From positions 806,001 to 870,000 of the forward strand of contig OZ014423.1 in NCBI GenBank assembly GCA_963965975.1: a DNA stretch of 64,000 nucleotides. Reading direction: 5' to 3'. Below, one piece after another: positions 1-51,308 of this stretch. Made by a program: the position numbers and the translations under genes. The notes under the pieces are model-generated. The model saw only the letters and a program-made list of their open reading frames with translations, did no database searches and was not told where the DNA came from. Source of the stretch: Xestospongia bergquistia (lineage: Eukaryota; Porifera; Demospongiae; Haplosclerida; Petrosiidae). Position 1 is the first letter of the stretch, and every line of letters begins with the position of its first letter.

Positions 1-9792
<9,792 letters not shown>

Positions 9793-10184
9793 TACAAAGT
9801 ATTCCTCGGGTAGAGTACGTTATCACTACAAAAATAATACCTCGTGTGTGTGTGGACGTCTGCAAAACGACAGCTCATTAAAATTATAGTTAATTAAAAT
9901 TAACAATTATTAACCTCGGCTATAATGATATTCATAGTACAACAATGATATGGAGGTGAGGCCCTTCGTATTAAAGTGCTGTGTGAAAGTGAGCACTGCA
10001 ACTTGATCGCCACCGTATTCATAGCTATTAAGTCGCCCGTAAGCAGGAATTAACTATTGAACAACAAGATTGTGAATAAACAAAGCGATCAATCCAAGAA
10101 GCAGACTGCGCATTCATAGTGTTTGCTGTTCGACTGGCGGAAGGCAAGATTGTTCCACAGTGAGTGTGTGTTTGCTGTTCAATA
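9793..10184. promoter_or_regulatory. Divergent intergenic promoter region, Brr2 / PH-BTK-ANK-WD40 gene
   Basis: 392 bp separate the two divergent start codons. The Brr2 start lies in GTAATGGCGGAGG, resembling a YY1-type start-site motif. An ACTGCGCATTC half-site at about 10105 resembles half of an NRF-1 site. No TATA box is obvious. Promoter function is inferred from the head-to-head arrangement. Confidence 0.5.
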
Positions 10185-11125
10185 ATGGCTAGCCCCAATG
10201 GAGTTACTATTTACAAAGAAGGGATTCTGATGAAGCGAGCTAGAGGCCTGCATAACAGAAGAAATATTAAATGGCAGGACAGATACTGTAGACTTACAAA
10301 TATTTCACTTGACTACTTTGACCCTAAGAAATTGGTAAGTCAATGAAATGATGCATGGAGAGAGAAATAGAGAACTTAACTTAAGCAAATGATGTGGATA
10401 TCAAACATAACCCATTCAAGGAAATCCAATCACGCCTTATCATAATGCTATCTTTTCAGTTGACTCTTAATAGTTAAAATATCATAACAATGGCTGACAC
10501 AACAGATATAGTTTACTTTGCTAGTAGTAAGTGCAATACTAGCGTGTTAGACGTGCCTTCATTATAGTCAAGACACACAATAAGGTGATTTTAATAGCAA
10601 GGTCAGTAATTAAGGTCTACTTACTAGCTAAAGTCTTCTTCAAAGCACAAGGATTGTTGCTGTTACAACTTAGATTGCACTTTTGATTAAGAGTATACTT
10701 CCCTTCACACAAAAGACATTTTTTATATTATGTTTGCCAAACATTTGCTCATTTACTACACACCATCTACCTGTTAAAGTCAACAAACATAATATAAATT
10801 GGATTCTTCATACAGTGATGACTTACTATTTAAATATGTGTTGCAAGAATCAGTTTCAATATTCACTTCTCTGTCATATTATGATGTATTCATGTTATGT
10901 CATATTTTTGTTGAGTTATTTACTTACATAACTTTGTAACACAGTCTTTGCAAACAATCCTTAGGCTCTCTCTGTCCTTTTCTGTTACATGTTACAGTGT
11001 TTGCTTGCTGACTACAGCAACTGTTTATTTTCAGTAATGGTTTATAGGTTGTTGTGTGTGTGATCTGAACATCTGTTGACAGATTGTGTTACTGTTATGG
11101 TTTGGTGTGTGTAATAGGTAATAGT

Positions 11126-11173
<48 letters not shown>

Positions 11174-13189
11174 AATGAACCAAAGGGGCAGTTCAAACTA
11201 GCTCAAATTAACATCATAGAAATCATTGCTCACGGGACATTTGACAAATTAAAGGGTCATCCCTTTCAGGTGAGCCACAATAGTAAATGACACAGGGTAT
11301 GGCATGCTTCAAACTTCTACAACAGAGGTATTACTTTACTCTTTATTAGTGGAATGCTTTTAACTAAAAAGTACTATAATGATGTAATTAGTAATATAAT
11401 TGAAACAAATATTCATTAGTTTCTATAATAATTGTAGTTTATATATCACTCATCTGTCTGTCTGTCTGTCTGTTCAGTCATTTAGTCATGTTGCATGATA
11501 GAGAGAGAGAGGGGGGTATGTCATTTGGCTCTTGTCTTGTTGATCATTGCCAAATGATTATAAATTAAGGAAACAGACAATTAATGGATGGAAAGATGAA
11601 TGAATAGACTTAATGAACAATTGTTTATTGTTATATAATACGTCATGTTGTATAATCAACAAGGCAAGGGTTGGGATATACCATTAATGCTTGTTTTGGC
11701 TAATAGAGAACTCACCCACTAAAATGTTATGTTATCAGACTTGTTATCACACACATCTAATATACCCCATTGTAATATCAGCATATAAGTCCCTTAATCC
11801 TATAATTGGAGCTTCCAACAACACTAAATACATCAATGATAATTTGGATTATAACTCAATATATTGGCATAAATTATTTGATTGGTACATTCTTGTGGTA
11901 ATATACTATTGAATTTTTGAACTCTCTATGCTTACAATGACAGCTGCCTAATCCTGGAAAACTATAACTTGTATAAACATCACTGCTCGTAGTTATGCTA
12001 GGATAAATAATAAATTATGTACTTAGTATATTTTTCATCTATCTCTGTTTTTGTTTGGAAAAAGAAACACTGTAAAAAATAGAAAATATCACTGATCCAT
12101 GTGTGTGTGTGTCTGTGTGTGTATAGTTGGAGTCAGAATGGTCTGTTATAATGTTAGATACATTTTACAATCAGCTTACTTGGTGAATTAATGTACAAAC
12201 GGATGTCTTCACAATGTTCGTGTACAACCTTGATGGTATTGTAACCTATCCATGTTCTGTTTTACCTGTGTACAATGATATCCTATGGTTTAAGGAATGG
12301 TCACTTCATTGTAGTCAGTGTTTATTGCTTGTAGGTAGTGTTTCTGTCAGTTTAAGAAGTAATTTTATTGTTTGCTAATGTAGTCTGTGAAATTACTCGT
12401 TAAAGGAAGAAAGAGCACTACAATAATTTTCGTATGAAAAGTTGAGGCAATTAATACATTTGTTAATGTTAATGTGTACCTGACATGTATATCCTTTCTC
12501 AGTGGTAGTTTCTTTATTTGGTGATAGACTTAGGTAGTTAGATTCCTTAAAAAGATAGGGGTGGGTAAGCACCTGGTTAAGTGGGCATGAAGAAAGAGGT
12601 TTGGCTGAGAATAGACTATAGTGTTTAATCTGTGTAGTATCAACTATAATGTCTCTTTGCTCTTTTGAACTGGATCTATACCAACCAGACTACCCACCAT
12701 CTAGAGACTATACATACATGAGATAAATATGTTAAATCATGTCTACTTTGAACACAACACTTGTGAGGTCTCTATTTTCCTCTTACACCTCTAAATCACT
12801 TTGTCTAGTTTTAATAGACAATATTGTCTATACAATGTATCCTTTGACAGTGATCTCATTGCTGTTGTAATATAAAATGGTTGTGAATGAAAATGAATCT
12901 ATTTTCATATTTATTTTGATTCATTTTCAATGTAATATTGTATGAAGCCTAATACAATACATTATATATACATCATATATATATATATATATACTATTAC
13001 TGAAGTAGTTTGACTCAGACTTAAATATATATAAAGTTACCTCATTTTAATACTAGTATAATAATGTCATTATAGTTTTGTCTAATAGTCTATCTTTGTC
13101 ATTTATCTGCTGTTGTGGGTTTCTTTGTGAACTTTTGATATCACTTTTATTGTTGTTTGGTTTCTCATTGACAACATGTTGTCGTCATC

Positions 13190-13232
<43 letters not shown>

Positions 13233-15514
13233 TACTCACTCAATAGATTGGAGATCTAAGTGAAGTTATGTATTTTGCTTCTAAATCTCCTCAAGAACGC
13301 AATGATTGGATGGAAGCATTTCGTTTAGGTAAATACCTTCATTATATAGTATTAAAATATTCATTATTCTCCTTGATGTAGCTGCCATTAATAATGGTAA
13401 CGAATTATTATTAAAACATCATCCTGGTGTTTATGGACTCACTAATAAAGATCGTTGGAGTTGTTGTGGAAGAGCTAGAAGAGAATGTGAGGGTTGTGTA
13501 GACTCTAAGGGTGCGCTAAAAATATTGGGACATAATGTTGACGGTAAATACAATTATATCATAATCATTAATAACTAATTGCTTTCAAATTAATAACTAG
13601 TTGCTTTCGATCTGTTATTTATGTTTGTGGTACATGTCATTTGAATGTGTTGGAATGTTTTTGGTCTCATTGGTACTTAAAGAATGAATCAACACACACA
13701 CACACACACACATATAACTGTATATATAAGTGTATGATGCACATACTGTATATATTGTTAACTAACTTTCCACTGTTTCTAGTTCCAGAATAAACTATAA
13801 AATGATAACAAAAAATTGTTGTTGCTGTATTGAAACCAGTTTTATTTACAAGTTAAACTTGTTTGACATTAAAAAGCCATTTGTTGTCTTAAGCTAGTTT
13901 GTTGTTGATTTGAATAATTTATTTACTAACCTGCTTACTTACCTGTTTGACCTACCTCTTCTTTAGGCAAAAAGGAGCGATCAAAAACCACACCCATGGA
14001 CTTTGTCACTTTAGGGGATGACCGTTCCTCGCCTTCTCCTATTCGAGACTCCAAGGAGGATCTCTCAGGTTCTATCAAGTCAGACATCAGTGATTCAACT
14101 CTCACAGAACCTAATGAAGAACATGGAAGCATAAGACGAACATTTACTATTGCTGACACACCACCTCGACCACAACTTAAAAAACAGAGGTGAATTGTAG
14201 ACCTGCTATAAAGGTATTTTTGATATCTTTTGTAGCGCTAGTGCTCCATCTTCCTCAACAATACTTCCCAAGAGTCCAACATTAAGTGATACTATCGAAG
14301 AAGAAGAAACCAAAGAGGACAAAGAGAATACTGAAAAAGAAAGTCGTCATCCATCATCTATGCACCCACCTCAAATTGATGACATTACTCGGAGTGGTGC
14401 AAGTTCTCCAGCACTCAGTACAGGTTATATGGCATACACTAGTCATGTGATTGTCACATGATCTGTTGTTAGCACTGTAAAACCTTTCATCATTATGGAC
14501 ACTTTAAAATAAATTTCAGGACATTTCTTTTAAAAGTTTTCCTAAAAGTTCATTGCAGAAAGGTTTTGTTTTTTTAACTTGTGATGTCACAATTTACATC
14601 ATTTCTTGTACCTCTACTCCCCAACACATTCTCAACAGTCTAGACACCTATAATATTATAATGCACATTTAATACATTACAATATACATAATATATACCT
14701 ATATAAATTAACCAGTGTGACAACAATGACAATGTTTACATACTTGTAGTATCCTATAGTAAGAATGTGCTAACTAAAATATTCAGAAGGTTATCATTTA
14801 CTAGACAAAGTTACTGTTGTTTAAATGAACGCTAAATAATATAGTTTGTGAGTAAATGCGTGTAGTATAAATTCCTAGTATATATCATTGTGGGTTACTA
14901 TCAGTTACTAATACATTGTTGTTTACTACATGTAACTAGTCACAATATAGACCAAGCCTTTGTTGCTATGATAACAGTGTAGTTTGACAAATGATTTATA
15001 TACATGCCTATCTGTCCATTTTGTCTTTCTGTTGATCCATTTTCATCATATATTCTCTTTCCTTTGCAGATTCTGGTCATGGTACAAGTTCTCGTCCTGC
15101 TTCCATGGTAACATATGAGGGAGAGAACCTCCCTTTGACTCCTCACTCTACTCGATCTACCTTCACAACAGTCACAACAGATTCAGACCCAACCAAAAGT
15201 CTGGGTGGTGATTTGCGATCAAGAAATATAGACACGTTATCCATTTTGTCAGATGTAAGTGGAACTTCAGGTTTTTCAGGGACATTGTCTAATCCTTTGA
15301 CACGTATTAAAAGAGCAGCTCGACCTCAGGTGAGACATGTCTGTCTGTCTGTCTGTCTCTATATCTATCATATCTCCTAGAGTGTTATTCTTAAAGATGG
15401 CAGTGTAATTCTTTTGGAACCTAGTTCAACATCTGAGTCTAATATGGGAGAGGGTATTGCTAAACTACATCAAGCGTGCAAGGTGAGTTGAAGTAGAATT
15501 TGAATATCAAGTTA

Positions 15515-15594
<80 letters not shown>

Positions 15595-18524
15595 TAGGAT
15601 GGCAATCTAGAGATAGTTAAAGATGAACTAGATACAGGTGCTCCTATCGGAGGACAAGAGATATTTAATGGACTCCCCATGTTACCTCTTTTTATAGCTT
15701 TCCTCCATGATCACAGACATGTTAGTTCTCTATTAATATATTTATTTATCTGTGCATTATTACTAGATAATGACATTTTTAATGGATCATGGAGCCGATC
15801 CAAATGCACTTGACATGGTTTCACGATCTTGTCTAATGCACATGGCTTGTCAACGTGGATGTAAAGACATAGTAGAAATGTTGATAAGATATAAGGCTGA
15901 CATTAATATGAGAGTAAGTACTTGTAGACATCTTTAATAGTTGATTCATGGATGCTCTATCTCTCTCTCTCTCTCTCTCAGAATCATGAAGATAATACAC
16001 CACTTTGTGAAGCTAGTAAAAATGGCCACAAAGATATTGTTGAAGTACTCATAGACAAGTAAGTAACCAGGTAAATAGATATATTAAATTACTTTTTCTC
16101 TTAATTAGGGGTGCTACAGTAGATTTTGAAGGTGGCACAAATCACACTCCTCTACATTATGCAGCTGAAGCTGGTCACTATGATATTGTGGAGTTTTTAC
16201 TTAAAAAAGGCGCTAATCCGATGAAAAAAACAAAGAAAAACAACACGGCATATCATTTAGCATTCACCAAAGGTCACACTGAGATCATGAGACTTATTCA
16301 AGATGTTCTCCCGCCCAAACAAAGACCCTATCAGCTCAAGGATGTAATAGAGCTCCCCAGTGAACAGGTTGTGTCCTCATTGTCATTCCGTGAAGATCAA
16401 GGATGTAAACCAGGACTTGTGACAGGATCATGGGATTGTATGGTATGTCACATGACAAATCACATGACAAATCACATGACAGATCTAAGCTATTTAATAA
16501 TACGATAAATTATAAAGCCTTTAAAATTTCCAGAAAGTACTAATGATAGGCACAACTGTACTGGGAAATATCATATAATATGAAGCCATCTTTATTTGAG
16601 ATAATCTCATTGTAGAAGTTAAATGATACACTAACTTATCATTGAGACAAAGAGTACAATAAATGTCTTTACAAACCTATGTTGTTAGTGTCGTAGGAGG
16701 TTCCATCTATTGTACGGCAATTTATGTAAATGTAGATATGCAGCTGTATCAATAGCATATGCATCATTGTTATTGACTAAGGAAATGTTTTCATTACAAT
16801 TGTATTGTTACTTCCTTTATTTGTTTTATAAACTGTTTTATTGTTTTGTATAGACTAGAGTATGGGAAATTAATGAAGAGGGTCTTACTCAAGTGAATGA
16901 AATCAGACTACCGAATACAGTGTTGGGTTTGGCTTACCACACCCCCTATATTGCCATGGGAACGACGAGTATTCAAGTAGTAGACAGTACAAATTATGAA
17001 TGGAGAAGAATAGTTGCTGATGATGTAAATGAAGATGAGAGTCTAGAGGTAAAATAGAGAGAGAGAGAGAGAGTGAGATGACTGGTTATATCTTCTATTA
17101 GGATCCTCCATTACATCATGTTGCTTATACTCCTGATGGTCATTTGATAACAGCTGCTGTTGAGTCCAATATTATTAAAATATGGCCACCCACAACTCAA
17201 GACTCTGTCATTAAACAACCTATAGTTAATCTTTATGTTGAACAGGAGAAATCTAGTGCTAGAAGTACAACAGGTGGAAGTATATCAAGGTGAGTGTCTT
17301 GTTAATAATAGGTGTGGTTTTTAAATGAATTCTAGGTTGTGTTTATCGACTTGTGAAGATGCTCCGTGGTTAGCAACAGTTCTTCAACCTGGTCCTCTCC
17401 TAACTCCGTCTGGTAATAAAAAAGTTCATATCTTTAATTGGAAAGAACATAAAATGTACCACATTATTGATACAGGTATGAATGGATGAATGGACAGACA
17501 AATGGATGGATAGATGAATGAATGGATAGACCAATGGATGGATAGATGAATGAATGGACAGACAAATGGATGGATAGATGAATGAATGGATAGACCAATG
17601 GATGGATAGATGAATGAATGGATAGACAAATGGATGGATAGATGAATGAATGGATAGACCAATGGATGGATAGACCAATGAATGGATGAACTATTGAATG
17701 ATTTATGAATCGTAAGTACTTAACATTCTTCACAACAGGTCAAGGTGGTCTGAAATTTAATGTACACCTTAGTTTCTCTCCAGGTGGACGGTAGGTCATT
17801 TGAGACTTTGTTGACTTTACTGATATACCTCCTCTCTCTCTTAGCTATCTTATGATTGGTTGTGAGAACAAGTTGACTAAAGTACAGAGTGACAATGCAG
17901 ATATATTATTGAGTTCAACATTAGAAAAAAGTAAAATAATATAATCAAGATTGTTCAAGATGAATCTCTCTCTCTCTCTCTCTCAGCTGATGAAATCACT
18001 TCTCTTGCATATTCTCCTTCTGGTGATCATGTGGCTGTCGGATTAGCCTCTGGTGACATAAAAATTATTAATTCTGAATCAGGAATACTTGCATTTACAT
18101 TGAGACACAAGGTCTATATTATATTTTCTCTGTTTCTTCATTTATTGATTTTTTCATCTCTCATATCATAGGATGGAGCAGCTGCAGTCACTTCATTATT
18201 ATATTCACAAAATAGAGGATACATGGCCAGTGGTCATTTACAAGGATTAGTACTACTCTGGGAAGGTAATCATGCATCTATATGTCTGTATCATTCATCC
18301 ATTTATTCATTTATACATCCATTTATCTGTACCATTCATCCATTTATACATCCATTTATCTGTATCATTCATCCATTTATTCATTCATACATCCATTTAT
18401 CTGTATCATTCATCCATTTATTCATTCATACATCCATTTATCTGTATCATTCATCCATTTACTCGTTCATTCTGTTTTTGCAGTATATAATGCACAAAGT
18501 AGTACACGAGATGTCTTTCAATAA
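10185..18524 (+). CDS. PH-BTK zinc motif-ankyrin-WD40 protein (954 aa, unrecognised architecture)
   Basis: Twenty exons join with consistent phases: 10185-10334, 11174-11269, 13247-13328, 13382-13543, 13967-14189, 14236-14423, 15070-15329, 15381-15482, 15598-15720, 15767-15913, 15982-16058, 16109-16442, 16854-17048, 17102-17289, 17336-17475, 17739-17790, 17845-17930, 17987-18111, 18172-18265, 18484-18524. Residues 1-115 look like a Tec/RasGAP-type PH domain (KEGILMKRA start, DWMEAFRLA last helix). A BTK zinc motif follows: HHPGV, then CC, then C nine residues on, with a loop three residues longer than in BTK. Next is about 230 residues of Ser/Thr/Pro-rich linker (about 165-390), then about five ankyrin repeats ([38 protein letters not shown]), then about six WD repeats (VWEI, IKIWPP, LLWEV). 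No kinase or GAP domain. An in-frame ATG at 10164 would add seven residues. Probable role: lipid-recruited scaffold (inference). Confidence 0.85.
11129..11170 (+). repeat. (CT)n tract before a 3' splice site
   Basis: Uninterrupted CT dinucleotides ending 3 bp before the acceptor TAG of exon 2 of the PH-BTK gene; it forms the polypyrimidine tract. Confidence 0.9.
13193..13229 (+). repeat. (CT)n tract upstream of exon 3 acceptor
   Basis: CT dinucleotides about 17 bp upstream of the acceptor at 13246 in the PH-BTK gene. Confidence 0.9.
15518..15592 (+). repeat. (CT)n tract before a 3' splice site
   Basis: About 37 CT dinucleotides running directly into TTCCTAG, the acceptor of exon 9 of the PH-BTK gene. 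Confidence 0.95.
17476..17690 (+). repeat. Intronic GGAT/GAAT minisatellite
   Basis: Variants of GAATGGATAGACCAATGGAT and GAATGGACAGACAAATGGAT alternate with GATAGATGAAT spacers, giving a higher-order period of about 32 bp. It fills most of the intron between exons 15 and 16 of the PH-BTK gene. The Ile/His/Ser-rich antisense frames here are not genes. Confidence 0.9.
18270..18470 (+). repeat. Intronic CATCCATTTAT-type minisatellite
   Basis: Repeated CATCCATTTATCTGTATCAT and CATCCATTTATTCATTCATA units fill the last intron of the PH-BTK gene. Confidence 0.9.
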
Positions 18525-19009: not shown

Positions 19010-22193
<3,184 letters not shown>

Positions 22194-23028: not shown

Positions 23029-26073
<3,045 letters not shown>

Positions 26074-26238
26074 CTTTATGAATCGATAATGCAACGTGTT
26101 GAGGAAATACTTGCTGGCGAGAATACGTGCGAAGTCGGAATTACGTATAAGACGTCGTCGGAAAATTGCGCATGCGCAGATGTCACTAATACGGATATTA
26201 CCACTAGTCCTCTACAGTTTACTGTCGTAAATTCATAA
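26074..26238. promoter_or_regulatory. 165-bp bidirectional promoter, HSP70 duplicate / DCTN1
   Basis: Head-to-head start codons at 26073 (-) and 26239 (+) flank a perfect 12-bp palindrome TGCGCATGCGCA at 26167-26178, which fits the NRF-1 consensus exactly. No TATA box seen. Confidence 0.65.
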
Positions 26239-32931: not shown

Positions 32932-35602
32932 TTACTGGACATATAACTCTATAATCTCAAGAGGTGTGTCCTCATTATGACGATTTTCATTACCACATAA
33001 TCGTAACTCAATATCTGAGTTTGTCTTCGGAACATCCTTACAGAACCATTGACCCCTATCACAACAAATATCTTTTTCAGTACAACCTTGACCATCCCAT
33101 AGAGGATCATCTGTATATAATGTATTATAACGATAAGTATCCTTAGCTCCAGTTTCACAAAAGTAGTCTTCACCAACAAAAGATGGTGTAAAGAAAGAAG
33201 ATGTGACATCTTTATTAGTGCATTGACAGGAAAAACTTATAAAACGTCCAACTGGATCAATTGCACCAGCAAAAGTCCAAATATGATGTCTTTTGCTGTT
33301 ATTTTTATATGTCAAAACAACTCCATCTACATAGAGATCATCTATTGTATAATAGGGGTTTCTTTGGAACCAGTAGAATGCATTAGGTGTAGACCATTGA
33401 TAACCTCTTACACGTCCACAAACTTTTGAGTACTTAAAGTTAGAAGTTGAGAAGAAAGCAGACGAACAACCTGGGTTATTTTGACCACGTTGACAGGTCT
33501 TAAGTGACCCATCTTGTCTGAGAGTCAAATCACCAGGACACTTTGTACCTGGTACTGACATATTAAGATAAGCTACTCTCATAAACCCTTTGTTGCCTTT
33601 TATATCTTTCTCCAATTCACAATATACAGACTTTTCTCCTTCTTCTGTCTTTATCAGATACTCTCCTGATGTAGCAGAACCATATTGTAATAGGTCAGCA
33701 CAACATGTAATGGTAGCAGGAATTGTAGTAGGTATTGGTTGTGAAGGTTGTATTGAACATGCTGTGTATAAAAAAAAAGATAAATTTATAAGCAAGCCAA
33801 CTAAAATTAGAGGCCATATTTAGCACCATAAACAGAACTCTTTGTTGGTTAGGAGTGGCGCGTGTCTAAATATTACAACTCATAATTCATATTTAAAATA
33901 CAGCTGATAAGTTTACTAATTAAATATTTGAATTAACTTACGGGCAGGTGTTGGTATGAAAACATTTGTAACTGTTTTGGTAGCAGTAGTAGTCTGGGTC
34001 TGAGTTGGACCTGGAGTAGTCAATGTGGTTGTTCTTTCTATTGTTGAAGTTAAAGTCGAAGTCACTAATTCAGTAGTTCGAAAGATACTTGTAACAGTAC
34101 TAGTGACATAGCTAGTAAGACTGGTTGTACTGGTAATGAAGGTAGTAGAGACCAAGGTTTTTGTTGTTGTCGAGGTGACTGTCTCTCTCACAGTAGTTGT
34201 ACTTGTACTGATTGATGTCACAGTTTTTGTTGATGTAACTGTAGATGTTGTTGCTGGTGCAGCTATGTGTAATAGAACATCATTACAATTAATATAATAT
34301 TACAAAGGGACTCACCTCCTACATGTAACAGTCTGTTGGCAGTGTTACTTCTCACTTTGTTTGCAAGACTGTTGTAGTTTAGTTTGTTTTTCAACGATTC
34401 TTGTACAAGTTTTTGTGTGATTTGAGCTGGTGTTAGATTGGGTTGTTTCTGTAAATGAATAGCTACCACACCACTAACTATTGGAGTAGCCATTGACGTG
34501 CCACTGTATGTTATTGCACATGTATTGCACCGATAATCAGCTCCCAGTACAGAGGCACCAGGAGCAAACACATCGACACACGTTCCCCCATTGCTATAAT
34601 AGTAAACATTATCACCATTAGCTGAGCCGGCAACAGTAATAACTCCAGATGTACTAGCAGGACTATATTTGCAAGCATCATCTCGATCATTGCCAGCAGC
34701 TACAACAACAATGATTCCTCTATTGACAACATTAGTTAAAGCTGTATCCACAGATTTAGAATAGGAGCCACCCAAAGACATAGAGATAACTCCAGGACGA
34801 TTTGAATTATCTATTTTATTTGCAGCATAGTTCAGTCCATCAATAACAACACTCCATGGAGCACTACCTGTACATCCTAATACACGTACACTATAAGCTA
34901 TTGCCTTTTTTGCTGCTCCATATTCTTTTCCAACAGCTAAACTAGCTACATGTGTGCCATGACCATCACAATCTTTGCCTTTTTGATTTTCTTTGTTTCT
35001 AACATCGTTAGGATCATATCCAGGGTATTTAGCTCTTCCACCAAATTCACTGTGGTCATAATTGATACCTATGTATTGCAAAATATATAATTCAGGCTTT
35101 ACAAATTATATACCTGTGTCTAAAATATAGACATCTGTTCCTTCTCCGTTACCATAAGGATTAAATTTGTTATCCAAGACAGAGCTGGTCTGGTCAATGC
35201 GATCCAGTGCCCATGAGATAGAGATATATGCATATGTCTCTTCTTCAACAAATTCTACATTATCAAAATCTTTTACCTGAAAAGTAACAAGACTATAACA
35301 AGACACCATCTTATAATTCATATAGAACTTACCTTATGTGCTCCATCTTCTGACAGCTCTGCAGTTACTATTTTAGCAAAAGGACCCTCTATTTTCTCAA
35401 AAATGGCAGCATTCAGGGACTCATTTCGAACTTCATCAGCAATGGTCTCAAACTTATCATGGCTGGTCTCGTTTTTCAACACAACAATATAGCGACCTGT
35501 TGTCTCAACTCCAGGAGCAGCACGTATAACTCGACGAGCTTGCACTACAGCTACTGCAGAGAGCAGGAGTACTAGTGCTAAAGAGCCTTTGTAAATTTGC
35601 AT
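32932..35602 (-). CDS. Secreted subtilase with Ser/Thr stalk and fibrinogen-like C-terminal domain, copy A
   Basis: Five exons with matching phases (35602-35333, 35276-35114, 35068-34316, 34262-33942, 33761-32932) give 778 residues. Residues 1-21 are a signal peptide (MQIYKGSLALVLLLSAVAVVQA; an upstream in-frame ATG exists at 35641). Then an I9 propeptide-inhibitor (GRYIVVLKNETSHDKFE), then a proteinase K-type S8 domain with triad Asp in YILDTG, His in CDGHGTHVAS and Ser in SGTSMATPIVSG, and oxyanion Asn in AAGND. Exon 4 is a Thr/Ser/Val-rich stalk of about 105 residues (STTTV, TSTVTS), probably O-glycosylated. Exon 5 holds a fibrinogen-C-like start (CCADLLQY, SGEYLI, SVYCELE) and then about 200 Cys-rich residues (GFMRVAYLNM, KVCGRVRGYQW, HIWTFAGA, DDPLWDGQGC, IELRLCGNE) ending IELYVQ. 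Likely a secreted, self-activating protease with a ligand-binding tail. Function is inferred. Confidence 0.9.
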
Positions 35603-36492
35603 ATTTCCTGCTTGAACTCGAATATCTAAACTAATCATCACTTTATATAGACTCGAAAAAGCTGAATCAGTAAAACCAGCGACATTAGTATTAACACAAA
35701 TGTTTTTGAATTCTATGACAGAATTTTAGTATAAAAATGAATACAACAAGAGATTGTAAGGAAAAACAAAAAAAAGAGGAAAATTAACCAGCATTAAATG
35801 ATATTAAGAGCATTTTTCTTGGTATTGTATCTCTAAATAAACAGTTGTCATTAAAAAAACAAATAATAAGCTAATTATATATATAATTTTGTGAAATGTT
35901 CATATTATGTTGTACTTTATATAATAATACTGTTCTATATTCTTTAAATCAAATTATTTATATGTGATTGTATGATATTCATATGAAAATGTCTAGATAC
36001 TACTTTTATTATAAATAATAATATTAATAGTCAGTGAATTGGAATGTGATCTGTGGTACATGTAAATTATTTAAAAGGTAAATTGATTATTAACTCAAAC
36101 CACAATGACACTTGTATGACAATGTGGAAGTCTATTAAGGTCACATTCCACCCACTATTAATACAACTTTAATCATTTATAATCCTTTTAAGGTGGATAC
36201 CTTATGTAACCTGATACATTTGTTGGCATAGTAACTGACAGTCTAATAGACAGCAGTTATAAGATTCTCTCTATCAAATGATACCACTGATCTCCAGGAT
36301 ATCACAAGAGTACACCTGGCAAAACACCTCCAAAAATTTGATGGATAAGATTATTATATATATAAACATGTCATCATAAATTTGTCATAAAGAAATGTCA
36401 TAATGTAAGTAGTACATATAAAACAAGATGCATATTGTATTTGTCTGAGCAAAAGGAATTGTACAATACAAACAAACAAACAAAAGTACTTT
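35603..36492. other. Intergenic spacer between subtilase copies A and B
   Basis: About 890 bp. The segment from about 35930 to 36490 (for example CATATGAAAATGTCTAGATA and the blocks around CTGATCTCCAGGATATCACA) recurs in the spacer between copies B and C, so the tandem duplication unit includes flanking DNA. No coding sequence seen. Confidence 0.7.
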
Positions 36493-39359
36493 CTATTGGA
36501 CATATAGCTCTATAATCTCAAGAGGTGTGTCCTCATTGCTGCGGTTTTCATTACCACATAATCGTAACTCAATATCTGAGTTGGTTTTCAGAACATCCTT
36601 ACAGAACCATTGACCCTTATCACAACACGTATCTTTTTCACTACAGCCATGACCATCCCATAAAGGATCATCTGTATAAAATTTGTTATAACGATAAGTA
36701 TCTTTAGCTCCAGTTTCACAAAAGTAGTCTTCGCCGACAAAAGATGGCATAAAGAAAGGAACAGGAGACTCTTTGTTAGTACATGGACAGGCAAAATTTT
36801 CATAACGTCCAATTGGATCAATTGCACCTGCAAAAGTCCAAATATGTTGTCTTTTGCTGTTATTTTTATATGTCAAAACAACTCCATCTACATAGAGATC
36901 ATCTATTGTGTAAAGAGGGTTTCTTTGAAACAAGTAGAATGCATTAGGTGAAGACCATTGATAACCTCTTACACGTCCACAAACCTTTGAGTACGGGACA
37001 CCAAAAGTTGAGAAGAAAGAAGACGTACAACCTGGTTCAGCTTGACCACGTTGACAGGTCTTAAGTGACCCATCTTGTCTGAGAGTCAAATTACCAGGAC
37101 ACTTTGTACCTGGTACTGACATATTAAGATAAGCTACTCTCATAAACCCTTTGTTGCCTTTTATCTCTTTCTCTAATTCACAATATACTGACTTATTTCC
37201 TACAAGGTACTCTCCTGATGTAGCAGAACTATATTGTAATAGAGTTGAGCAAGACTCAAATACAGTGTTTGGAGGAGGTAATGGTAAAACAGTAATGGGA
37301 GGTAATGTGGATGGTGTAGTGGGTGGTCCTAAGGAAGCATTGTTCTGAAGAAGATCTGCAATATAGTTTATACCACCTTTAACAATAGAGCCAATGTTGT
37401 CTATCATATTCTTCTCTAGATCTTCAAAATTTCTTAGAGTCTGACAACACACTAAAACATGAAAGGAAACTAGTAACCTTTTGATAGTATATTATTGAGT
37501 TAGATAACAGTAATGTACATCCTGTTAATATAAACTATGTAGGGCTATGTTACCACTAAATTTAACAACAAAAGATCTTACTTCCTTCTAGAGTTGGTGT
37601 AGGTGTGATGGTGACAGTGACAGAAGGAGCAATAGTGATAGTAGTTGTTGAGACAGACGCAGTTGTCATGGTTACAGTTGATGTCAGAGTGGTGGCTGAG
37701 ATAGTGACTGTTGATGTCACAGTGTTTGTAGAGACACTGGTAACAGTAGACGTTGATGTCATAGTATTTGTTATAGGGATGCACAACTGAGTACCTATAT
37801 ATGGTGAGAAAATAACATAGTTACTATGACTACATAATTAAAAAAAATAAAGCCATCTGCTATTTGACTAATAGACTGTATGTAAACAAGCGTCAATGTG
37901 TCTACAATATTGTACATTGTGGTACATTATTGTGGTTTACATTATATTGTTTTCCCCTTTTTGATATTATTAGTACACAAAGAAATATTTTAGGTGTGTC
38001 CACCTCAAATTCTTACAGTACTCTATGCAATTACATGTATATGATATCTAACTTACAGTTCACATTTACAAGACAGTTGGGTGTTGAGCTTCTCAAACTA
38101 GGCTCCAAATAGCGATAATTTAGTTTATCTTTTGAACATTGCTGTACCAGTTTTTGCTTAATTTGAGCTGGTGTTAGATTAGGTTGTTTCTGTAAATGTA
38201 TAGCTATAACACCACTAACTATTGCAGCAGACATTGATGTTCCACTAAATGCTTTACTACACGAACATTTATTACAGTTGTAATCAGCTCCTTGTATCAT
38301 GTTGCCAGGTGCTAATATATCAATGCAGGAACCGCCATTCGTAAAATAGTAGACGTCATCACCTTGTGCAGTGCCTCCAACAGTAATAACTCCAGAAGTA
38401 CTAGCTGGAGTTTTCAAACAAGCATCATTTCGGTTATTTCCAGCAGCTGCAACAATTGGAATTCCTTTAACGATGATGTCCACCAATGTTTTATTGACTG
38501 CTAAGGAATTGCCTCCACCCAATGACATAGAGATGATACTTGGACGATGTGGATTTGAAGACATAATTTTAGTTGCAGCATGGTTTAGTCCATCGATAAT
38601 AGCACTCCATGGTGCACGATTATTACACCCTAATACTCGTACACTATAACAAGTAGCTTTTTTAGCGACTCCACTATACTTTCCGCAAGCAAGACTTGCA
38701 ACATGTGTTCCATGTCCATGACAATCCCTACCTTGTTGACTAGTATTGTAAATTGCATCAATTGGATCGTATCCTGAATAGTTAGCTCTATAACCTTCAA
38801 ATTCACAATGGTCATAGTTGATACCTTTTTTAAGAATTAAGTGTCCTAACATTTTTAGTATTATTCTTACCTGAGTCAAGTATGTAAATATCAACACCCT
38901 CTCCGTCACCACAAGGTTCAAATTTACCATTTAATGTTGAACTAACTTGATCTATACGATCCAGTGCCCACGAGATAGTACCCTCAGCATATGTCTCTTC
39001 TTCAACAAATTCTACATTATCAAAATCTTTTACCTGAAAAGTAACAAGACTATAACAAGACACCATCTTATAATTCATATAGAACTTACCTTATGTGCTC
39101 CATCTTCTGACAGCTCTGCAGTCACTATTTTAGCAAAAAGACCCTCTACTTTCTCAAAAATGGCAGCATTCAAGGACACATTTCGAACTTCATCAGCAAT
39201 GGTCTCAAACTTATCATGGCTGGTCTCATTTTTCAACACAACAATATAGCGACCTGTTGTCTCAACTCCAGGAGCAGCACGTATAACTCGACGAGCTTGC
39301 ACTACAGCTACTATAGAGAGCAGGAGTACTAGTGCTATAGAGCCTTTGTAAATTTTCAT
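36493..39359 (-). CDS. Secreted subtilase with Ser/Thr stalk and fibrinogen-like C-terminal domain, copy B
   Basis: Exons 39359-39090, 39033-38871, 38824-38057, 37794-37582, 37451-36493 give 790 residues. Signal peptide MKIYKGSIALVLLLSIVAVVQA (upstream in-frame ATG at 39413), I9 propeptide, S8 domain with YILDSG, CHGHGTHVASL, AAGNN and SGTSMSAAIVSG all present, so the triad is intact. The catalytic domain has more Cys than copy A (CNKCSC, VLGCN). The stalk is shorter (about 70 residues, TSTSTVTSVST). Exon 5 adds a stretch absent from copy A, MCCQTLRNFEDLEKNMIDNIGSIVKGGINY, perhaps a short helix for oligomerisation, before a Pro/Thr-rich linker and the fibrinogen-like/Cys-rich domain ending IELYVQ. 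It is closer to copy C than to A, consistent with a later B/C duplication. Confidence 0.9.
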
Positions 39360-40169
39360 GTTTTCTGCTTGCACTCGAATATCTAAACTAATGATCACTT
39401 TATATAGCCTCAAAAACGCTGAATCAGCGATATTATTATTAATACAAATGTTTTTGAATTCCTATGAAACAATTGTAATATAATTATGAATACAACCAGA
39501 GATTGTAATGAATAAAAAGAGAGAGAAATAAAATAACTTTAAATGATATATGATGGATATTAATTTGTATTGTATCTCTAAATGAACAGTCATCATAGAA
39601 AATAACATAATGTCTACAAATTTGGTGAGATTTTCATATTATGCTGTACTTTATATAATAATAATGATCTCTATTCTTTAAATCTATTTATATGTGATTG
39701 TATGATATTCATATGAAAATGTCTAGATACTAATTTTATTATAAATAATAATATTAATAGTAGAATGTGATCTGTGGTACATGTAAATTGGGGATTATTA
39801 ACTCAAACCACAGACATATGTAGACGAGGTGTTGGTCAATTATGATAACATTCCACCCACTACATTAATCTTTAAGGTATGTAACCTGATACATTTGTTG
39901 GCATAGTAACTGACGGTCTGTGTGTTCTAATAGACAGCAGTTATGACATTCTCTCTATCAAATGATACCACTGATCTCCAGGATATCACAAGAGTACACT
40001 TGGCAAAACACCTCCAAAAATTTGATAGATAAAATTACTATTATAATATTATAAACATGTCTTGTCATAAAGAAATGTCATAATGTAAGTAGTACATATA
40101 AAACTATATTGTTGTATTTTGTCTGAGCAAAAGGCATTGTACAATACAAACGAATAAACAAAGTACTTT
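39360..40169. other. Intergenic spacer between subtilase copies B and C
   Basis: About 810 bp, homologous along much of its length to the A-B spacer. No gene seen. It contains the promoter of copy B near 39360-39420 (TATATAG at about 39402 antisense, possible TATA-like). Confidence 0.6.
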
Positions 40170-43089
40170 CTATTGGACATATAGCTCTATAATCTCAAGA
40201 GGTGTGTCCTCATTGCTACGGTTTTCATTACCACATAATCGTAACTCAATATCTGAGTTGGTCTCTGGAACATCCTTACAGAACCATTGACCCCTATCAC
40301 AACACATATCTTTTTCAGTACAACCTTGACCATCCCATAAAGGATCATCTGTATATAATGTATTATAAAGATAAGTATCTTTAGCTCCAGTTTCACAAAA
40401 GTAGTCTTCACCAACAAAAGATGGTATGGAGAAAGGAACAGGAGAGTCTTTGTTAGTACATGGACAGGCAAAGTTTACATAACGTTCTATTGGATCAAGG
40501 GCACCAGCAAAAGTCCAAATATGTTGTCTTTTGCTGTTATTTTTATATGTCAAAACAACTCCATCTACATAGAGATCATCTATTGTGAAAAGAGGGTTTC
40601 TTTGAAACCAGTAGAATGCATTAGGTGAAGACCATTGATAACCTCTTACACGACCACAAACCTTTGAGTATGGGATACCACAAGTTGAAAAGAAAGCAGA
40701 TGAACAGCCTGGTTCAGCTTGACCACGTTGACAGGTCTTAAGTGACCCATCTTGTCTGAGAGTCAAATTACCAGGACACTTTGTACCTGGTACTGACATA
40801 TTAAGATAAGCTACTCTCATAAACCCTTTGTTGCCTTTTATCTCTTTCTCCAATTCACAATACACTGACTTATTTCCTACAAGGTACTCTCCTGATGTAG
40901 CAGAACTATATTGTAATAGAGTTGAGCAAGACTCAAATTTAGTGTTTGGAGGAGGTCCAGTAGGTTGTGTAGGTGATGGTGACAATGGTGAAACAGTAAT
41001 GGAAGGTAATGTGGATGGTGTAGTGGGTGGTGCTAAGGAAGCATTGTTCTGAAGAAGATCTGCAATATAGTTTATACCACCTTTGACAATAGAGCCAATG
41101 TTGTCTATCATATTCTTCTCTAGATCTTCAAAATTTCTTAGAGTCTGACAACACACTAAAAACATGAAAGGAAACTAGTAACCTTTTGATAGTATATTAT
41201 TGAGTTAGATAACAGTAATGTACATCCTGTTAATATAAACTATGTAGGGCTGTGTTGACATTAAAATTAACACAACAAAAGATCTTACTTCCTTCTAGAG
41301 TTGGTGTGGGTGTGATGGTGACAGTAAAACCAACAGATGAAGTAATAATACTAGTAGTTGTAGAGACAGACACAGATGTCGTTGTTACAGTTGATGTCAG
41401 AGTAGTGGCTGAGATACTAGTAGTCGTGACTGTTGATGTCACAGTGGTTGTAGAGACACTGGTAACAGTAGACGTTGATGTCATAGTATTTGTTATTGTA
41501 TATGTTGTTGGGTCACATGACTGAGTACCTATATATGGTGGGAAAATAGCATAGTTACTATGACTACATATTTTAAAGACAAGACCTCTGCTCTTTGACT
41601 AATATATTGAATGTAAGCAGGTGTCATTGTATGTAAAATATTTGTATGTTGCAGTACATATATAATTTACAATGAATCATTCTTTCTTCGATGACATGTT
41701 GTACAAAAATATAATATTTTGGTGTATCAGGATCAAATTTTTACAGTACTCTATATACAATTACATGATATCGAACTTACTGTTCACATATAAGAGCCGG
41801 TTGGCTGTTGTGAGTCTCAATTTAACTGGCAAATACCGATAGTTCAGTTTATTTTTTAAGGACTCCTGTATCAATTTCTGTGTGATTTCAGCTGGTGTTA
41901 GATTAGGTTGTTTCTGTAAATGTATGGCTATCACACCACTAACTATTGGAGTAGACATTGATGTTCCACTGAGTGTTTTAATACATGAACATTGATTACA
42001 AGTGTAATCAGCTCCTTGTATTATGTCGCCAGGTGCTAGTATATCAACACAGGAACCGCCATTTGTATAATAGTAGACATCATCACCTTTTGCAGTGCCT
42101 CCAACAGTAATAACTCCAGGAGTACTAGCTGGAGTTTTTAAACAAGCATCACCTTCATCATTACCAGCAGCTGCAACAATTGGAATTGATTTGTTGAGGA
42201 CGTTCTTCAACACAGTATCAACTGAGCTAGCATACCCTCCACCCAATGACATAGAGATGATACTTGGACGACGTGGATTTGAAGACATAATTTTATTTGC
42301 AGCATGGTTTAGTCCATCGATAATAGCACTCCATGGTGCACGATTATTACACCCTAATACTCGTACACTATAACAAGTAGCTTTTTTAGCAACTCCACTA
42401 TTCTTTCCACAAGCAAGACTTGCAACATGTGTTCCATGTCCATGACAATCCCTACCTTGTTGATTAGCATTGTAAGTGGCATCAATTGGATCACGTCCTG
42501 AATAGTTAGCTCTATAACCTTCAAATTCACAATGGTCATAGTTGATACCTATTTTAAGAATTAAATGTCCTAACATTTTTAGTATTGTTTTTACCTGAAT
42601 CAAGTATGTAAATATCAACACCCTCTCCATCACCATAGGGCTCAAATTTACCATTTAATGTTGAACTAACTTGGTCTATACGATCCAGTGCCCACGAGAG
42701 AGTACCCTCAGCATATGTCTCTTCTTCAACAAACTCCACATTATCAAGGTCTTTTACCTGAAAAGTAACAAGACTATAACAAGACACCATCTTATAATTC
42801 ATATAGACCTTACCTTATGTGCTCCATCTTCTGACAGCTCTGCAGTTACTATTTTAGCAAAAGGGCCCTCTACTTTCTCAAAAATGGCAGAATTCAAGGA
42901 CTCATTTCGAACTTCATCAACAATGGTCTCAAACTTATCATGGCTGGTCTCGCTTTTCAACACAACAATATACCGACCTGTTGTCTCAACTCCAGGAGCA
43001 GCACGTATAACTCGACGAGCTTGCACTACAGCTACTGCAGTGAGCAGGAGTACTAGTACAAAAGGAAGCTTTTCTTTGCAAATTTGCAT
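40170..43089 (-). CDS. Secreted subtilase with Ser/Thr stalk and fibrinogen-like C-terminal domain, copy C
   Basis: Exons 43089-42814, 42757-42595, 42548-41781, 41528-41289, 41155-40170 give 810 residues. Signal peptide MQICKEKLPFVLVLLLTAVAVVQA, I9 propeptide, S8 domain (YILDSG, CHGHGTHVASL, AAGNDEGDAC, LSGTSMSTPIVSG; triad intact), stalk of about 80 residues (TSTVTSVSTTTVTSTVTT), the CCQTLRNFEDLEKNM segment, a longer Pro/Ser/Thr linker (SPLSPSPTQPTGPPP) and the fibrinogen-like/Cys-rich domain ending IELYVQ. It is head-to-head with the granulin gene 237 bp away, so the two may share a promoter. Confidence 0.9.
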
Positions 43090-43326
43090 CGTTCTATTCT
43101 ATGTGCGCTAATTTTCAATTGCGCTGGCCTCTTTTTCTCCCAACTTACATGTATTACAATCATGGTCGCAAAGTCCAAGCCGCAATTAAAATTAGATTGT
43201 AAAATTTATTATTAGACTGAATTGTTGCTAAGGAAGACTGACAAAGGTAGGCTCCACCCTCATGATAATAAGTGCTTATTGTTGCATCTAGAGAATGTGT
43301 TTTGTCTACAATTGAAGACCAGGAAA
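43090..43326. promoter_or_regulatory. Bidirectional intergenic region, subtilase C / granulin
   Basis: 237 bp between divergent start codons. No strong core motif recognised. Its equivalent in the second duplication copy (upstream of 52158) has diverged. Confidence 0.4.
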
Positions 43327-43929
43327 ATGTCATTACTTAACTTAATCGTTTGGTGTCTTCTTCTCCATCTGACCAACTGCAGTCTCCTCTACAATGCACC
43401 ACTTCATGGAGGCATCAGTAAACTTTGCCCAGATCGTAATACAGAGTGTTCTCCAGATAATACTTGTTGTCCTCTTGCTGATGGCAAGTATGGTTGTTGT
43501 AAATACTCGAATGGTGTCTGCTGTGAGGACAAGGAGCACTGTTGCCCTAACAACGCAAAATGTAGCCAAAATGGGGCCAGATTTGAGTGTATTGACAAAG
43601 ACGGAAGAGTTATAAGTGAAAATTATGAAAATGAATATCTTGATAGTTACTTTTACGGTTGGAGGACATGTCCAAATGGATATTGTTGGAATGAGTTTAG
43701 CACCTGTTGTGGTACAGCTTCATCTGGTTTTTACTGTTGTCCAATTCATGATGGTGTTTGCTGTGGAGATGGATCCTGGTGTTGTGAGAAGGGCTCCCGA
43801 TGTGGACCTACACCAGCTAAATTAGGAAGAAATGATGAGGGTTATAATCCTACATGTATTTCACCCGATGGGTCGACAACAGTTGCGTATTTGGGTAGCC
43901 AACCTTATATAAAGAAGGACACAATTTAA
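43327..43929 (+). CDS. Secreted two-domain granulin
   Basis: Single exon, 200 residues from the ATG at 43327, chosen because it starts a good signal peptide (MSLLNLIVWCLLLHLTNCSL); the frame is open upstream to an ATG at 43222. Two granulin modules with paired cysteines follow: CPDRNTECSPDNTCC, YGCC, GVCCEDKEHCC, then C...C; and CPNGYCWNEFSTCC, FYCC, GVCCGDGSWCC, then C...C. The first has the canonical twelve-Cys layout. The second is slightly shortened at the start and extended before its last Cys. Granulins are secreted, disulphide-ladder growth-factor-like or lysosomal proteins. The role here is unknown. A degenerate copy of the 3' half lies at 52714-52925. Confidence 0.9.
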   Translation: MSLLNLIVWCLLLHLTNCSLLYNAPLHGGISKLCPDRNTECSPDNTCCPLADGKYGCCKYSNGVCCEDKEHCCPNNAKCSQNGARFECIDKDGRVISENYENEYLDSYFYGWRTCPNGYCWNEFSTCCGTASSGFYCCPIHDGVCCGDGSWCCEKGSRCGPTPAKLGRNDEGYNPTCISPDGSTTVAYLGSQPYIKKDTI

Positions 43930-44069
43930 AGTTATTCTGTTTTTTTCTCTGATACTATTTGTTATAACTTTGTTTTAATCAACATCCATTCTCAGTACAA
44001 CAGTATTTTTATTATGAAGAGTTAATAACTGTTAATAGTGTAGTCTGCCTTTTCAGCATAGAATATAGA

Positions 44070-44925
44070 TGAAGGGGTTATCATATTCCCTGAATGACAG
44101 ACAGGAAGACTTCTCCAGCAAAGTCACATGTTCTTGTGTAAATTAAATAATACTTTTTACAGTGATTGTACAAGTAATGAAAGAAATATCTGAGATATAG
44201 TTATGTGGCTGGATGAAGTGTGATAAAGAAACCATTCTATGACTCATTTAGTTCCTCATTACTATAATTGGCAGTGTTTTGAAGTGTGTGTGCTTCATAT
44301 TATTTACTACTGTGTGCCCCCCTTTTTTGAACCATCAAAAGATCAAAAGATTAATACCTGGAATACCCAAGAAGGAAGACAGCCTTGGTCTATGTCACAA
44401 TACCTGCTTTGTAAACAAAGTTCATACCTTAAAACAACTATCCATGATCATTGTTACTCCCACTCCTTTGTAGTAATCTCAGCTGTATGAGTGCACATCT
44501 CATATCGCTGTTGACCCTTTATGAGGTAATGCTTCATATGACTGTCATGTGACTCATAGATTATATTTTAATTGACTATTGAGATTTCAGACAATTAAAA
44601 GTCTTATTTAAAATTAAACACTTTGAATACAAAACTACAAAAACCTAATTTAATGAAAATTTTTTTTCAACTATTACTAAGTACAACTGGACTTATTTGC
44701 TTCAATTTAACTTTAACTTTCATTTTTGCGGCAAATTAGAATCTAGAAAATGAAGGTACATAATGAATGAATAGTCAAATTAATGGATGATAAAATATAT
44801 GAAGTAATTACAAAGATTTATTAATCTATGTTTAATTATTATATAAACCCTCAAAAGTATCTGCTTAGCTGTCATAGCTGGTACCTGGCTTATGATTAGC
44901 TCACATGAACAAGATACATGATGTG
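44070..44925 (+). pseudogene. Decayed duplicate fragment of the WDR59 5' region
   Basis: Three blocks match WDR59 in order: 44073-44190 with 53038-53165 (start exon and exon 2; GAAGGGGTTATCATATTCCC against GAAGTGGTTATCAAATTCCC), 44275-44590 with about 53930-54300 (exon encoding NHQKVDIWDTQEGRQP) and about 44790-44925 with about 54550-54645 (exon encoding KPSTVFACISAHMNKIYD). The start codon is gone, splice sites are altered and frames are broken. It lies downstream of the granulin gene, the same relative position as intact WDR59 has to the granulin remnant. Confidence 0.8.
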
Positions 44926-46283
44926 TGCAAAAAATGTGCAATTTGGTTACTGTTCTAAATGGCAAAAAACCAAAAAATCTTACCTCTTTCTGAAGTTGGA
45001 GTTGGTGTGACAGTGGAAGCAACAGATGTCACAATGTTTGTCACTGTGACTGTTTTAGCCACACAAGATTCAGTATCTAAATAAATACTGTCAACAGACT
45101 GAGTACCTATATATGGTGGGAAAATAGCATAGTTACTATGACTACATATTTAGAAAATAAAGCCATCTGCTCTTTGACAAATATATGGTTGAATATTTGA
45201 AGTAATTGCAAAGATTTATTAATCTGTGTTTAATTATTATAGAAACCCTCAACAGCTATCTACTTAGCTGTCATAGCTCGTATCTGGCTCATGATTAGCT
45301 CACATGAACAAGATAGATGATGTTTTGAACTGCAAAAAATTGAAACCTTACTTCTTTTTGGAGTTGGTGTGACAGTGGAAGCTATAGTACTGGTAACAGA
45401 TACCACAGTGTTTGCCACCATGCGTGTGTCAGCAAAACAAGACTGAGTACCTATATAAGGTGGGAAAATAGTGTAGTTGATATGGCTACATATTTAAAAA
45501 ATAAAGCCATCTGCTCTTTGACTAATAGACTGAGTGTACACAGGTGTCATTGTGTCTAGAGTATTTGAAAGTCTATACATGATTTCATCTTTGATGATAA
45601 TTATATTAGTACATAGCAGAGTAATATTTTGGCATGTCTTTGTCAAACACTTACAGCACTCTATACAGTTAGTGGATATCTAACTTACTATTCACATATG
45701 CATTTACAAGACAGTTGGGTGTTGAGCTTCTCAAACTAGGCTCCAAATAGCGATAGTTCAGTTTATCTTTTGAACACTCCTGTATCAGTTTTTGTCTGAT
45801 TTGAGCTAGTGTGAGATTAGGTTGTTTTTGTAAATGCATGGCTATAACACCACTAACTATCGGAGCTGCTGCAGATGTGCCAGTTAATGTTGTAATACAC
45901 TTTTGGGAACATTTTTCTTTACAAGTGCAATCAGCTCCCTGTACTATATAACCTGGTGCAAATATATGTCAACACAAGGACCACCATTGGTATAATAGTA
46001 GACATCGTCACTTAGCAGTTCTAAGTATGCAGAGGCTGCAACTGTAATAACTCTAGGGGTGCCAGCTGGACTTATATAACAAGCGTCATATCGATTGTTA
46101 CCAGCTGCTGCAACAATTGGAATTCCTTTATTGAGGATCTCCACCACTGTTTTATTGACTGACTCAGCCCAGATACCACTCAATGACATAGAGATGATAC
46201 TTGGACGACGTGGATTTGAAGAAGTAATTTTATTTGCAGCATGGTTTAGTCCATCAATAATAATGCTCCATGGTGCGCGACTA

Positions 46284-46420
46284 CACTGTTAAAACAAGGG
46301 TGTACATTTACACCAAAATAGGTGTGCACCATACACTTTAAAAACTCTACCCCTAGGGTGTAAATCTAAGACTGATATTTACACCATATTGGTGTATATC
46401 GCAACTCTTTCAAGTGTAAA
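46284..46420. repeat. Left terminal inverted repeat and subterminal GGTGTAAA motifs
   Basis: CACTGTTAAAA terminus followed by at least six copies, in both orientations, of GGTGTA or TTTACACC. Confidence 0.85.
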
Positions 46421-46594
46421 TTGGAAAATTATTTTAAAATTGAAATCTGTAACATTATTTTATTATTATATAAAACACTCAATATAATACATACCTGTTA
46501 TAATAAATAAACTGTAATAAACTAATAAACTATACATTATATAAATAAACTATAATAAAACTAAACTATAATAAACTAATAAACTATACATTAT

Positions 46595-47723: not shown

Positions 47724-47862
47724 TGAAAAGTAGAGAGACTGAGTGCAGCTGTTAAGGCAGGTGCTAAAACTGGTTGAAGTTTTGCGCATGCGTAACACCA
47801 TGCTGTTTAGAAAAATAGAAGGCAGGTGGCAGTTATCATAAACCGTTCTCAACAGATAACTC
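47724..47862. promoter_or_regulatory. Internal bidirectional promoter of the transposon with NRF-1-like site
   Basis: 139 bp between the SAM-gene and transposase start codons contain TGCGCATGCGTA at 47783-47794, one base from the NRF-1 palindrome found at the two HSP70 promoters. Confidence 0.55.
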
Positions 47863-51050: not shown

Positions 51051-51160
51051 TTTTAATAAATTAATAATAATTAATTTTAATAAATGAATTAATAATAAAT
51101 TATTAATAATAATTTATGATAATTAAGATTTATGAGTTAGAAAAGTAAAAGGCAGAGTAA

Positions 51161-51308
51161 ATCATATCATCATTGACCAATTGTTATGGTGAATGCATGT
51201 GTTTTACACCTAACTGCTGTACTTTACACCCTAAGGTAGATTTACACCCCTAAACCAAGAATAAGTTACACTCTGGTATACGATATTTACACCCCATTTT
51301 TAACAGTG
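51161..51308. repeat. Right terminal inverted repeat and subterminal TTTACACC motifs
   Basis: TTTTACACCTAA, TTTACACCCTAA, TTTACACCCCTAA, GTTACACT and TTTACACCCC precede the terminus TTTTTAACAGTG. Confidence 0.85.

Follow-up and report, generated by a model that had tools for sequence, protein, structure and literature searches.

A predicted sponge gene that probably joins a Tec-like PH-BTK unit to ankyrin and WD40 repeats

Gene organization

The window, a stretch of 64,000 nucleotides from the sponge Xestospongia bergquistia, contains on the plus strand (contig 13 of the genome) a putative gene of 20 exons, whose predicted product carries a PH domain, a BTK-type zinc motif, a linker rich in S, T, P, E and D, ankyrin repeats and a WD40 part, in this order (Table 1). 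When the exons were rebuilt from the sequence, all 19 introns were found to be of the GT-AG type, the phases matched at every junction, and the resulting frame encodes a predicted 954 residues followed by a stop codon. An in-frame stop is located upstream of the initial ATG. A preliminary description of this DNA had proposed 20 in-phase exons forming one frame of 954 residues, and its coordinates, splice sites, phases and length were reproduced exactly.

Table 1. Exons and other features of the PH-BTK/ankyrin/WD40 gene, with positions counted from the first nucleotide of the window.
Feature	Position	Strand	Basis
Exon 1: ATG and first part of PH (residues 1-50)	10185..10334	+	Rebuilt exons; Pfam PH 10-110
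Exon 2: PH middle (residues 51-82)	11174..11269	+	Rebuilt exons; Pfam
Exon 3: PH C-terminal part (residues 83-110)	13247..13328	+	Rebuilt exons; Pfam
Exon 4: BTK-type zinc motif, after a phase-1 intron	13382..13543	+	Pfam; solved-structure alignment
Exon 4, ligand codons: H123; C137 and C138; C148	13420-13422; 13462-13467; 13495-13497	+	
Exon 5: S/T/P/E/D-rich linker	13967..14189	+	Rebuilt exons; codon scores
Exon 6: linker; weak donor CAG/GTTATA	14236..14423	+	Splice-site and codon scores
Intron 6: likeliest border if there are two genes	14424..15069	+	Splice-site scores; first-exon search
Exon 7: linker; strong acceptor; opening codons with coding signal	15070..15329	+	Splice-site and codon scores
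Exon 8: linker end and beginning of the first ankyrin repeat	15381..15482	+	Pfam; repeat borders by eye
Exon 9: ankyrin repeats	15598..15720	+	Rebuilt exons; Pfam
Exon 10: ankyrin repeats	15767..15913	+	Rebuilt exons; Pfam
Exon 11: ankyrin repeat	15982..16058	+	Rebuilt exons; Pfam
Exon 12: last ankyrin repeats straight into first WD blade	16109..16442	+	Rebuilt exons; Pfam
Exon 13: WD40 part	16854..17048	+	Rebuilt exons; Pfam
Exon 14: WD40 part	17102..17289	+	Rebuilt exons; Pfam
Exon 15: WD40 part	17336..17475	+	Rebuilt exons; Pfam
Exon 16: WD40 part	17739..17790	+	Rebuilt exons; Pfam
Exon 17: WD40 part	17845..17930	+	Rebuilt exons; Pfam
Exon 18: WD40 part	17987..18111	+	Rebuilt exons; Pfam
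Exon 19: WD40 part	18172..18265	+	Rebuilt exons; Pfam
Exon 20: C-terminal tail, stop TAA	18484..18524	+	Rebuilt exons

Domain architecture of the predicted protein

To define the domains, the whole protein, the linker and the WD part were compared with Pfam, the matches listed being the best 25 of 34 families for the whole protein, the single matching family for the linker and the best 25 of 30 families for the WD part. Within the whole protein, the PH domain (residues 10-110, 51.9 bits against a Pfam cut-off of 25.1), the ankyrin repeats (Ank_2, 154.7 bits against 27.3) and the WD40 repeats (55.4 bits, and 63.5 for the WD part alone, against 27) all score above their cut-offs, in agreement with the domain set of the preliminary description. 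The remaining member of that set, the BTK motif, keeps its ligands while scoring 16.1 bits by itself (E 0.01), under the gathering cut-off of 24, and it is recognised by these four ligands and by its place after the PH domain. Among solved structures, the first 159 residues best match the PH-BTK unit of human Tec (2lul; E 3e-11, residues 9-149), to which the PH domain and the BTK motif align jointly. In this alignment, the positions of the zinc ligands are occupied by H123, C137, C138 and C148.

Neither SH3, SH2 nor tyrosine kinase domains occur among the Pfam matches listed for the whole protein, the linker and the WD part, and neither C2 nor RasGAP domains among those listed for the whole protein. 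Moreover, the PH domain begins at residue 10 and the upstream stop precedes the ATG, which leaves no room for C2 and RasGAP domains ahead of it. Since the defining catalytic domains were not found among the Pfam matches listed, as the preliminary description had stated for kinase and GAP, the protein is neither a Tec kinase nor a RASA GAP.

The linker comprises residues 165-410 (about 245 residues) and has one Pfam match only, below cut-off at 13.3 bits. S, T, P, E and D make up 54% of it, compared with 28% of the rest of the protein. A count by eye gives six ankyrin repeats and, behind them, seven WD blades. A few residues separate the last ankyrin repeat from the first WD blade, and both lie in exon 12, so that the ankyrin and WD parts belong to one gene; both the passage from one to the other within this exon and the conclusion that this half cannot be two genes had been put forward before, and both hold. 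A structural model of exon 12, generated alone and without an alignment, has a mean pLDDT of 41.8 with 0 of 111 residues above 70, a level at which ankyrin and WD folds are not resolvable.

Relatives in the genome and origin of the PH-BTK unit

The sponge's own genome (146.46 Mb, 21 contigs), whose animal nature is shown by nine Wnt matches on three contigs, was searched with the whole protein and with its parts. The whole protein gave at least 143 matches, a lower bound obtained from the 48 of 1,178 candidates that were scored; 14 of these matches are the gene itself, and the rest fall within residues 410-636, in the ankyrin part and at its margin. For the WD part there were 10 matches, comprising eight from the gene itself and two weak ones (E 2.5e-4 and 0.007), and the PH-BTK part gave seven, comprising four from the gene itself and three weak ones (E 0.0175 to 0.1). 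No paralogue was found in this genome with the whole protein (among the candidates scored), the WD part or the PH-BTK part. Contigs of viruses and of bacterial genomes were also searched for relatives of the PH-BTK part; among their 16 and 60 pattern matches, respectively, there was no relative.

When the same genome was searched for the BTK motif, four places had an E of no more than 1; the present gene, whose motif is too weak, is not among them. The first is a Tec-type gene on contig C3, with a BTK motif of 36.6 bits, an SH3 domain of 47.1 bits and, on a partial piece, a PH domain of 22.7 bits, just under the cut-off of 25.1. The second is a RASA-type gene on C7, in which one C2 piece scores 56.7 bits and two RasGAP pieces score 44.3 and 23.2 bits, the latter below its cut-off of 28.3, while the PH domain and a second C2 domain were recognised by eye; its BTK motif reaches 21.0 bits in the genome search, under the cut-off, and the piece holding the motif has no Pfam match at E 0.001. 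The third, on C8 (L015/L016), has a BTK motif of 35.1 bits followed by a disordered tail that runs to the stop; its PH piece has no Pfam match, no kinase was seen, and neither ankyrin nor WD40 repeats were found nearby (within about 3.5 kb past the stop for ankyrin). The fourth place, on C12 (L011), scores 24 bits over 16 positions.

The intron pattern distinguishes between these genes. In the present gene a phase-1 intron lies 13 codons before the histidine of the BTK motif, and by eye the C3 and C8 genes have an intron of the same phase at a distance of 12 codons from it, on the same side, the acceptor side alone having been read in C8; in the RASA-type gene on C7, one open frame crosses this place, also by eye. 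Because the phase-1 intron is common to the C3 and C8 genes and not to the C7 gene, the PH-BTK unit is, on this comparison of sequences, most likely of the Tec type. The term "Tec-like" in the preliminary description is thus supported twice, by the best solved-structure match and by the shared phase-1 intron as read by eye.

Comparison with known proteins

LRRK2 is not known to have a PH-BTK unit. According to PMC4087324, that protein likewise combines ankyrin and WD40 repeats in one signalling protein, and it additionally has ROC, COR, leucine-rich repeats and a kinase domain. Tec-family tyrosine kinases, represented by human TEC (2lul), by the C3 gene, with which the phase-1 intron is held in common, and by BtkSD of the sponge Suberites, which has the typical Tec domains (PMC5793068), share with the present protein the PH domain, the zinc ligands and the BTK motif, here below its Pfam cut-off; the present protein differs in that no SH3, SH2 or kinase domain occurs among its Pfam matches listed, ankyrin and WD40 repeats taking their place. 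Tec architectures that include a PH domain are also reported from choanoflagellates and filastereans (PMC8662651). The GAP1/RASA RasGAPs, represented by the C7 gene, likewise have a BTK motif behind a PH-like stretch, but C2 and RasGAP domains precede it in C7, both absent here, and the intron pattern differs. The C8 gene, with a BTK motif and no kinase seen, shares the phase-1 intron and differs in that ankyrin and WD40 repeats were not found nearby.

The BTK motif has already been combined with other domains, given that TIR_2 and the BTK motif occur together in sea anemones (PMC5094078). This protein, actiniarian NG2, resembles the present one in that, in an early animal, the BTK motif is accompanied by domains other than a kinase; it differs in having TIR_2, and the available text mentions neither ankyrin nor WD40 repeats for it, the term "PH domain" being absent from the main text (PMC5094078).

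The preliminary description had suggested a new architecture, and no description of PH, BTK, ankyrin and WD40 in one protein was found among the papers listed by the literature searches, protein databases and most subscription papers being outside their scope. That the combination represents an old, unnamed family, spread through many sponges or other early animals and new only for want of a name, is about as likely as not: the frame is intact, with no stop or frame break, which speaks for such a family, while the papers listed name no such protein. As all component domains are familiar, the surprise is moderate.

Lipid-binding residues of the PH domain

In BTK, the residues K12, K26 and R28 form the basic PIP3-binding signature of the first two PH strands. 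In the alignment to Tec, K17 and R33 of the present protein correspond to BTK K12 and R28, while Gln31 stands at the place of BTK K26, and this replacement makes PIP3 specificity doubtful. Accordingly, a single gene whose PH domain binds another lipid or a protein, rather than PIP3, is a possibility that we consider seriously without favouring it; the product would then be a fixed scaffold or a degradation adaptor and no PI3K effector. The glutamine at the position of a binding lysine is consistent with such a function, against which K17 and R33 are kept. For a degradation adaptor in particular, ankyrin and WD40 repeats are both common as substrate receptors, but no domain that would suggest a ubiquitin ligase partner is present among the Pfam matches listed.

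One gene or two

The PH-BTK half is joined to the ankyrin-WD half through the linker only, and most doubtfully via intron 6. The linker was the weak point of the single gene in the preliminary description; most of the evidence gathered here favours one gene, which we regard as quite probable though not proved, with intron 6 as the likeliest border and intron 4 as a less likely one should there be two. Introns 5 and 7, of 46 and 51 bases, are too short to hold a border, which leaves intron 6, with 646 bases, and intron 4, with 423 bases, as its possible places.

The linker exons 5, 6 and 7 are each open in one of the three sense frames, the one used, and the chance of such an open frame is 0.0046, 0.0092 and 0.002, respectively (for each exon, 5,000 sequences under a first-order Markov model). 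Among the sense frames, the used one alone also has a positive codon score, of 0.49, 0.53 and 0.34 bits per codon, respectively; one antisense frame is positive as well (0.19, 0.09 and 0.29 bits per codon), so that the score discriminates poorly for exon 7. The 12 codons that open exon 7, its first ATG among them, reach 5.4 bits, a value attained by 0.96% of 2,185 open noncoding windows, which overlap, are not independent and derive for the most part from introns used for the background as well, against 48% of the gene's own coding windows, which include training codons.

If two adjacent genes on the same strand were present, the first would encode the PH-BTK unit with a disordered tail ending just past exon 6, and the second an ankyrin-WD40 protein starting from exon 7 or 8. 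We judge this arrangement unlikely. The donor of exon 6, which would suit it, is weak: at 4.1 bits it is the third lowest of the 19 and lies slightly below the 90th percentile (4.4 bits) of all GTs of the window; still weaker donors are nevertheless found inside certain domains, in intron 9 (3.4 bits, ankyrin part) and intron 18 (3.8 bits, WD part). Reading through past exon 6 leads to an in-frame stop (14459), with AATAAA at 14508, both in favour of two genes; one AATAAA is the chance level, with 0.85 expected per 646 bases, and the 12 codons read through are neutral (0.4 bits), which argues against two genes. The C8 gene, with its BTK motif, its tail and no ankyrin match in the stretch examined past its stop, offers a precedent for such a first gene.

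On the downstream side, the acceptor of exon 7 is strong (9.5 bits) and its phase fits, and the coding signal opens this exon, with no ATG between the last upstream stop and 15070. Intron 6 has no alternative first coding exon in the form of a single ATG exon with a phase-1 donor above 2 bits, and intron 4 has one weak candidate (13684-13729, donor 3.1 bits); the search covered one ATG exon spliced straight to the next exon, as distinct from paired small exons or non-coding exons. A downstream protein that starts from Met313 or Met409 behind a non-coding first exon is possible. A border in intron 4 instead is less likely than one in intron 6: its splice sites are good (7.6 and 9.9 bits), and the stretch from the last upstream stop to exon 5 lacks an ATG. 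A border within exons 8-20 is ruled out, as ankyrin and WD repeats run throughout and exon 12 holds both.

Proposed function

Taking the single gene as the preferred reading, its product is more plausibly than otherwise a cytosolic scaffold of 954 residues with a Tec-type head and no enzyme, recruited by phosphoinositides. The N-terminal PH-BTK unit would most likely bind membrane phosphoinositides, and when the lipid appears, the protein would bring its partners to the membrane, acting as an adaptor with a Tec front end. It is further conceivable, although rather doubtful, that in early animals a PH-BTK unit of the Tec type became separated from the kinase and was attached to a fused ankyrin-WD40 platform. 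The outcome would be a PI3K-regulated scaffold without a kinase, which may organise Tec kinase signalling or compete with it, in a genome that has also retained Tec-type and RASA-type genes. If one transcript spans the gene, PH-BTK units are not restricted to kinases and RasGAPs and also act as lipid sensors at the head of pure scaffolds; counting the C8 gene, this genome would then present the BTK motif in four settings, which would be informative on how Tec signalling was assembled.

Within such a scaffold, the zinc motif would brace the PH domain, as in Tec kinases, and the disordered linker of about 245 residues, which may be phosphorylated, would free the PH-BTK head to reach the membrane. 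The ankyrin stack probably continues into the WD40 propeller, which would create one continuous docking surface, and the outermost strand of the propeller seems to be supplied by the residues just past the last ankyrin repeat.

BTK-motif genes elsewhere in the genome

Among the reading frames listed, the gene on contig C8 is a second BTK-motif gene lacking a kinase, besides the PH-BTK, ankyrin and WD40 gene of the window (hereafter the main gene). Its strong BTK motif is followed by a Ser/Thr-rich tail of about 230 residues that extends to the stop codon, and no kinase was found for it in those frames. The short BTK-motif match on contig C12 may have arisen by chance.

Genes neighbouring the main gene

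The helicase gene located 5′ of the main gene appears Brr2-like by eye, and its start lies about 390 bases from that of the main gene, on the opposite strand (window 9792-10185, judged by eye); given this spacing and orientation, the two genes may share a promoter. The HSP70 N-terminal fragment resembles, by eye, an exon of the neighbouring HSP70 gene, and could be a partial copy of this adjoining gene. The remaining features of the window, including a tandem array of S8 subtilase genes, are summarized in the table. Plus-strand frames flank the minus-strand Ras/Roc-like GTPase on either side.

Features identified in the window and in the sponge's own genome (G000)
Feature	Location	Strand	Evidence
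BTK-motif gene (L015/L016)	G000 contig C8, about 7258500-7261100	minus	BTK motif, 35.1 bits
Short BTK-motif match (L011)	G000 contig C12, about 5298237-5298284		24 bits, 16 positions
Helicase gene, upstream neighbour of main gene	window 4981-5547 (DEAD match)	opposite to main gene	DEAD match
Exon of neighbouring HSP70 gene	window 21675-21971		125.9 bits
HSP70 N-terminal fragment	window 25810-26211	minus	102.4 bits
S8 subtilase genes, tandem array	window 32935-52281	minus	Pfam Peptidase_S8 and by eye
Peptidase_S8	window 34266-35105	minus	Pfam, 134.1 bits
Peptidase_S8	window 38034-38930	minus	Pfam, 142.2 bits
Frame resembling S8 subtilase frames	window 41764-42654	minus	by eye
Peptidase_S8	window 45672-45968	minus	Pfam, 44.5 bits
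Frame resembling S8 subtilase frames	window 51253-51516	minus	by eye
Ras/Roc-like GTPase, one frame	window 58228-59082	minus	38.6 and 35.2 bits
tRNA gene	window 60352-60423	plus	54.8 bits
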